From positions 1 through 51,551 of the forward strand of contig JASBST010000033.1 of the NCBI GenBank assembly GCA_030148775.1: a stretch of 51,551 nucleotides of DNA, written 5' to 3'. Position numbers and translations under genes: made by a program. This document shows positions 20,984-21,922 of the stretch, piece after piece; the stretch's first letter is position 1, and each line of letters starts with the position of its first letter. This DNA is from Thiogranum sp. (lineage in GTDB: Bacteria; Pseudomonadota; Gammaproteobacteria; DSM-19610). Under the pieces are notes generated by a model. That model ran no database searches, was not told where the DNA came from, and saw only the letters and a program-made list of their open reading frames with translations.

Positions 20984-21922
20984 ATGTCTGAACAGCATCA
21001 AAAACACCAGCGTGGCGCGGCCAAAACAGCGCGCATTCCGATCAAGGTCGAGCCAACGCACACGCCGTTGCGCAAACCGGCCTGGATACGCGCCAAGTCG
21101 CCGGCGGGGCCGGAGGTCCAGCGGTTGAAGAGCGTGCTGCGTGAAAACCGGCTGCATACCGTCTGTGAAGAGGCGTCGTGCCCGAATCTCGGCGAATGCT
21201 TTGCCCACGGTACCGCGACTTTCATGATCATGGGGGACATTTGTACCCGCCGCTGTCCGTTCTGCGACGTGGCCCACGGGCGTCCTGATCCGCTTGATGG
21301 CGAAGAACCGGATAATCTGGCGCGGACGATCCAGGCGATGGGTTTGCGTTATGTGGTGATCACATAGGTGGATCGCGATGACTTGCGCGACGGTGGTGCC
21401 GGCCATTTCGTGGCGTGCATACAGGCGGTGCGCGCCGCCTGTCCGCAGATTCGCATAGAAGTCCTGGTGCCGGATTTTCGCGGGCGCCGGGATCGAGCTT
21501 TGGATATTCTGCGCGCCGCGCCTCCGGACGTCTTCAATCACAATCTGGAAACCGTACCACGGCTTTACAAGCAGGCCCGCCCCGGCTCCGATTACCAGTG
21601 GTCGCTCGATCTGTTACAGCATTTCAAGCGGGAACATCCCGAAGTTCCTTCGAAGTCCGGTCTGATGCTGGGTTTGGGCGAGACCATCGAGGAGGTGGCG
21701 CAGGTGATGCGCGATCTGCGCGATCACGATGTGGACATGCTGACGCTAGGCCAGTATTTGCAGCCCAGTCGGCATCATCTGCCGGTGACGCGATTCGTGC
21801 ACCCGGATGAATTCGAGCAATTGCGCCAGCTCGGCGAAAACCTCGGATTCAGCCAGGTTGCCAGCGGGCCGATGGTGCGTTCCTCTTATCATGCCGACCA
21901 GCAGGCGGCGGGCCTGGTGTAG
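20984..21922 (+). pseudogene. lipA: Lipoyl synthase interrupted by an in-frame amber codon
   Basis: LipA inserts two sulfurs into octanoyl groups by radical SAM chemistry. One frame runs from ATG 20984 to TAG 21920-21922 and would encode 312 residues, but codon 128 (21365-21367) is TAG. The segment reads [20 protein letters not shown], where E. coli LipA has [17 protein letters not shown], so TCG (Ser) to TAG is a single-base change. Both iron-sulfur motifs lie before the stop: auxiliary C61/C66/C72 and radical SAM C87/C91/C94. The rest, including the C-terminal RSSYHAD serine loop, is intact. A GTG follows the stop but has no ribosome-binding site. Real nonsense mutation, sequencing error and suppression are all possible. 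Confidence 0.9.

Follow-up and report, generated by a model that had tools for sequence, protein, structure and literature searches.

The lipA gene studied here lies in a 51,551-nucleotide stretch of DNA (henceforth the window), which is one contig (C86) of a draft assembly (G000; 3,108,229 bases in 111 contigs, 86.7% complete) from Thiogranum, a sulfur oxidiser. The first-pass annotation had reported that this gene carries an in-frame TAG codon where E. coli LipA has serine; reading the lipA frame of the given sequence and comparing it with the E. coli protein, we confirmed both points, and the frame is otherwise open from position 20984 to its terminal TAG at 21920-21922 (Table 1). The two halves of the gene correspond to adjacent parts of the family model TIGR00510 (positions 11-114 with 150 bits and positions 117-294 with 273 bits), and neither half alone reaches the cut-off of 310 bits. 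The iron-sulfur motifs and the C-terminal serine loop had been described as intact, and they are: the translation contains CX4CX5C at residues 61-72 (C61, C66, C72), CX3CX2C at residues 87-94 (C87, C91, C94) and RSSYH near its C terminus. The gene therefore has the similarity over the model length (in two frames), the cysteine motifs and the RSSYH sequence of a LipA, and what it lacks is one uninterrupted frame. The upstream ybeD-like and lipB genes, which had been judged normal, are indeed both open. Comparison of the window with the closest congener compared (G012, whose LipA is 92% identical to that of the window) showed that, among the window genes compared, lipA is the only one with a stop codon within its core. 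Five further apparent stops (at 22972, 22990, 24076, 24554 and 46454) belong to upstream extensions close to where the G012 frames begin and do not mark broken genes; the remaining ones fall in antisense or alternate frames and were rejected.

Table 1. Features of the lipA locus (positions in the window) and genes elsewhere in the assembly that carry a stray stop codon
Feature	Position	Strand	Residue in relative	Stop	Remarks
ybeD-like DUF493 gene	19782..20297	+			open frame; below equivalog cut-offs; true start probably inside
lipB, octanoyltransferase	20270..20977	+			open frame; above an NCBIfam cut-off
lipA, 5' part	20984..21367	+			127 codons before the internal TAG; both cysteine motifs
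GGTGATC, Shine-Dalgarno-like	21355..21361	+			upstream of GTG 21368; also in the unbroken gene of G012
lipA, internal in-frame TAG	21365..21367	+	S	TAG	residue 128; serine in relatives
lipA, 3' part	21368..21922	+			184 codons in the same frame; GTG first, RSSYH region and terminal TAG last
glycosyltransferase-like ORF	21938..23011	+			in the lipA frame, after the terminal TAG and five codons
prfB (release factor 2)	contig C76, about 72744 (L249 position 1515)	-	S	TAG	serine also in E. coli RF2; found in a separate family search
uvrB			E	TAA
glycerol-3-phosphate dehydrogenase gene			Q	TAG
purC			E	TAG
RND adaptor gene			Q	TAG
rnfC			E	TAG
rnfD			W	TAG
DUF2802 protein gene			E	TAG
ycgN			W	TAG
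phospholipase D-like protein gene			Q	TGA
LbtU-type porin gene			W	TGA
AcrB-family protein gene			Q	TAG
RelA/SpoT protein gene			Q	TAG
MlaD protein gene			S	TAG
ABC transporter ATPase gene			E	TAG
heme-copper oxidase subunit I gene			E	TAA
DUF4124 protein gene			E	TAA	weak; identity near the stop 60-62%

The residue lost to the internal TAG is the invariant serine of the sequence TSVDRDDL. Serine occupies this position in all 16 congeners and in all 80 genome_contigs lipA loci inspected (the best 80 of 588 confirmed; one of the 80 apparently belongs to a genome already counted among the 16 congeners), and the column is invariant in an alignment of 27 LipA sequences from which the window sequence was left out. 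Two of the genome_contigs entries (L066 and L074) are titled as Klebsiella pneumoniae MAGs; their LipA is 70-71% identical to that of the window and ranks among environmental gammaproteobacteria in the match list, and the Klebsiella titles may be wrong. We considered whether the gene could be read in two pieces, with translation stopping at the TAG and restarting at the adjoining GTG, and the resulting 127- and 184-residue pieces forming a working enzyme. The GTG directly 3' of the stop is preceded by GGTGATC, for which the predicted duplex energy is -12.3 kcal/mol; this is stronger than at 37 of the 39 gene starts in the window and is matched by only 8 of 612 internal in-frame start codons. 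The break would also fall in a loop: modelling of the unbroken G012 protein (mean pLDDT 72.5) places this residue at the very beginning of the loop that joins the strand at residues 123-127 to the helix at residues 138-152. However, the whole gene of G012 has the same bases and the same GTG, which indicates a coding coincidence rather than a design, and some 11 bases separate the core pairing from the GTG, which is rather far. A split lipA was not found in the 16 congeners, in the 80 genome_contigs loci or in 149 other rows among the matches listed in a class-level search, in which 254 of 274 genomes matched; the single row flagged there (G229) owed its stop to the gene's own terminal codon. 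A two-piece enzyme would, moreover, leave the stops in other genes described below unexplained, and we regard it as scarcely credible.

To what extent the loss of lipA would be tolerated depends on what else the genome encodes. The first-pass annotation had argued that a dead lipA would be harmful unless a second LipA, lipoate salvage or suppression compensated, and had proposed searching for each. A search of the draft assembly (86.7% complete) found no second lipA: the sole other match of the LipA query (C108:151604-151810) has 33% identity over 71 residues and belongs to an intact 345-residue frame. Similarly, no LplA-type lipoate ligase was found, the sole LplA/LipB-family match in the assembly being LipB itself. 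In the genus-level search this family gave exactly one match in 16 of 17 genomes and none in G011, where lipA starts 79 bases into its contig and lipB may be cut off. Two Pfam searches, together with reading of the translations, were used to name the lipoate-dependent enzymes, and these have open frames in the assembly: a pyruvate dehydrogenase (PDH) with two lipoyl domains, the 2-oxoglutarate dehydrogenase (OGDH) operon, GcvT, GcvH and the first GcvP subunit. A frame of 1044 residues (L155 2170-5304, contig C2) reads as a PDH E2 with two lipoyl domains fused to dihydrolipoamide dehydrogenase. With neither a second lipA nor a ligase found, and with lipoate-dependent enzymes apparently intact, a true lipA null should be crippling. 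After its divergence from G012, lipA accumulated 33 synonymous and 5 nonsynonymous changes on the window branch (25 and 7 on the G012 branch), a pattern that indicates purifying selection before the stop as well as after it, with no relaxation in the 3' part. Hence, if the sampled population has really lost lipA and its cells live without endogenous lipoate, as the stop in the sequence as given would have it, the loss would have to be recent. Judged from these sequence features, a true null should be both harmful and very recent.

Stops of this kind also interrupt other genes of the assembly, a fact that the earlier annotation could not have shown. Stretches of G000 were paired with syntenic G012 stretches by tRNA positions and neighbouring matches, and premature stops were retained only where homology and a coding signature were present on both sides of the stop; this filter replaced our first detectors, which were swamped by antisense frames in which W, C or Y codons become stops through third-base changes. 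The comparison with G012 covered 526,255 bp of coding sequence and yielded 15 clean premature stops (12 TAG, 1 TAA and 2 TGA). Ten of them come from a 447,514-bp set, in which 44 raw rows were reduced to 13 by the filter and to 10 by removing three by hand (L193 6412, a short frame with a gap beside the stop; L195 5839, within a tRNA pair; L210 3618, antisense-like), and five from a 78,741-bp set, in which all five raw rows were kept for G000 and none of three for G012. In marked contrast, the reverse comparison, in which G012 was the genome examined, gave no credible premature stop in 530,965 bp, the single filtered row of 27 raw rows (L222 19202) being antisense-like. Comparison of contig C108 with the single-contig genome G001, for which the filter was slightly looser (6 of 7 rows kept, 4 of them already known), added two stops in 88,761 bp, both TAA. 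G001 itself retained none of its one raw row in 312,083 bp, and G013 and G006 showed no premature stops in 28.5 and 14.9 kb of coding sequence, respectively. Together with prfB, lipA is thus one of at least 18 genes of the wider genome that carry a stray stop (13 TAG, 3 TAA and 2 TGA; Table 1), and no credible stop of this kind was seen in the stretches of the relatives compared. The sixteen genes besides lipA and prfB are distributed over contigs C39, C75, C77, C85, C8, C1, C7, C9 and C108 (stretches L188, L189, L196, L208, L210, L213, L214, L232, L251, L254, L256, L257, L315 and L317). Contig C85 (71 kb) holds five of these sixteen stops and seems enriched in them.

The stop in prfB bears directly on whether such codons can exist in living cells. 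RF2 is essential. TGA is the commonest terminator among the 410 genes compared (242 genes), so that a true prfB null should be lethal. A real and recent loss of lipA would therefore have to be set beside simultaneous hits in many genes, prfB and purC among them, which a living cell could hardly lose together; with no ligase for salvage found and with PDH, OGDH and GcvT/GcvH intact, we consider such a loss very improbable. More generally, a set of stops in vital genes is more easily understood as a property of the sequence than as a property of a living lineage.

Unless, that is, the lineage reads through UAG, and perhaps UAA, well enough to tolerate nonsense codons in vital genes, of which prfB, purC and lipA carry TAG. 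The share of TAG expected among the stray stops is 54-58%, since the most frequent of the codons that a single change can turn into a stop become TAG. Observed shares were 12 of 15 in the G012 comparison (p = 0.036-0.069), 13 of 16 when prfB is included (p = 0.016-0.060) and 13 of 18 when the two TAA stops of C108 are also added (p = 0.09-0.17), and the over-representation of TAG is at most weak. The stops are not confined to UAG (3 TAA and 2 TGA of 18), and the residues they replace are mixed (E, Q, S and W) and lie at conserved positions. A tRNA with a CUA anticodon was not found among the 26 tRNA loci of the 86.7% complete assembly, all examined with ARAGORN, nor by a pattern search, whose three places were two ordinary tRNAs and one site with no tRNA; no UUA anticodon occurs among the 26 either. 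On the other hand, 26 tRNAs compare with 43 matches in G012, so that a suppressor tRNA could be unassembled. Of the 26, 24 differ by 0-2 bases from a G012 tRNA and the other two have no fetched counterpart, so that the tRNAs are uninformative as a gauge of base errors. Loss of a release factor does not provide a cause of readthrough, RF1 being intact (contig C15) and the RF2 gene itself carrying a TAG. In agreement with the earlier view that amber has not simply been reassigned, TAG terminates 8 of the 39 window ORFs examined and 92 of the 410 genes compared (91 in G012), and efficient readthrough of the terminal TAG of lipA would fuse LipA to the next ORF. Readthrough sufficient to spare vital genes is accordingly very improbable in our view. 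The fuller proposition is no more likely: it would have a free-living gammaproteobacterial lineage tolerate dozens of nonsense codons, mostly UAG, in vital genes such as lipA, purC and prfB, either by leaky termination or by a suppressor tRNA missing from the assembly, with UAG still serving as a terminator.

If the stops are instead random errors in the sequence, they should leave other traces, and the evidence on this point is divided. For 17 stops the codon of the relative is available; 14 of these differ by a single step, and every one of the 14 is a change from G/C to A/T (p = 0.002 under uniform error), comprising eight G-to-T/C-to-A and six C-to-T/G-to-A changes. This bias fits a damaged template and also fits natural mutation. 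The stops imply an error rate of about 9e-4 per base, from which an excess of missense changes can be predicted. In a three-way comparison with G001 after realignment, the excess was -6 ± 31 one-step changes against 66 predicted; a stricter subset gave 20 ± 18 against 40, and the window, with G013 as outgroup, gave 2 ± 16 against 11. With two outgroups, the window showed 23 nonsynonymous changes in G000 and 39 in G012. The missense result, with its wide errors, leans slightly against the full random-error prediction, and the lack of a clear excess is a point in favour of suppression. An earlier apparent match (excess of 95 ± 41, predicted 94) was biased by the use of G012 as the reference of both alignments, vanished after realignment and was withdrawn. 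An enrichment of G-to-T/C-to-A changes among missense sites (p = 0.0006) was likewise set aside, being seen also at four-fold silent sites and gone in the stricter nonsynonymous count (p = 0.41). At four-fold silent sites, with G001 as outgroup, the lean from G/C to A/T is stronger on the G000 branch than on the G012 branch; it is too large for the estimated error rate and is a real compositional shift, of a kind that could also have contributed to a genuine lipA mutation. Frameshifts show no excess (2 in G000 and 4 in G012, unvetted).

Overall, given the many stray stops, with a vital gene such as prfB among them and none credible in the relatives compared, we favour the interpretation that the lipA TAG is a base-level artefact of the draft and not new biology, and consider this probable. 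The stops most likely arise from sequencing or assembly and not from cells; an uncorrected error, a damaged template or a variant from minority or dead cells may have entered the consensus. In the living lineage lipA would then most likely be an ordinary lipoyl synthase gene, whose product would insert sulfur into the octanoyl groups placed by LipB. Among the three possibilities first offered for the gene (a recent event, an assembly error or readthrough), base-level error is thus the best supported, whereas a recent true null is unlikely given the open frames of the lipoate enzymes and the similar hit in prfB. Against the artefact, an error rate of about 9e-4 per base is high for contigs 50-190 kb in length, no surplus of frameshifts was observed and the missense counts lean slightly the other way; these points leave the suppression reading a small residual probability. 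With 15 stray stops in 526 kb, or roughly one per 35 kb of the coding sequence compared, a scan of G000 would keep yielding 'broken essential gene' findings, and a striking single-gene observation in a draft should be weighed against the rate of like events in the same assembly. Should the stops be real, G000 would offer a natural example of nonsense codons being tolerated.

Compared with known lipoyl synthases (TIGR00510, PRK05481 and PRK12928; solved structures 4u0o, 5exi and 8tsk), the window gene is alike in the whole-length similarity of its two frames, its cysteine motifs, its RSSYH sequence and the lipB-lipA order, and differs in the in-frame TAG at an invariant serine. Nonsense suppression or recoding of UAG is known through suppressor tRNAs and through pyrrolysine. 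G000 resembles such systems in having in-frame UAG inside conserved genes under selection, and departs from them in that no CUA tRNA was found, RF1 is kept, UAG is a common terminator, the residues replaced are mixed and UAA and UGA are also affected. A literature search for spurious stops in metagenome assemblies gave no match in the portion of the sources available. Spurious nonsense codons in draft or metagenome assemblies offer a further comparison. G000 differs from them in that the expected missense excess was not demonstrated and in a rate that is high given the length of its contigs; it shares with them the genome-wide scatter, the three types of stop, the hits in vital genes and the absence of such stops from the relatives compared.
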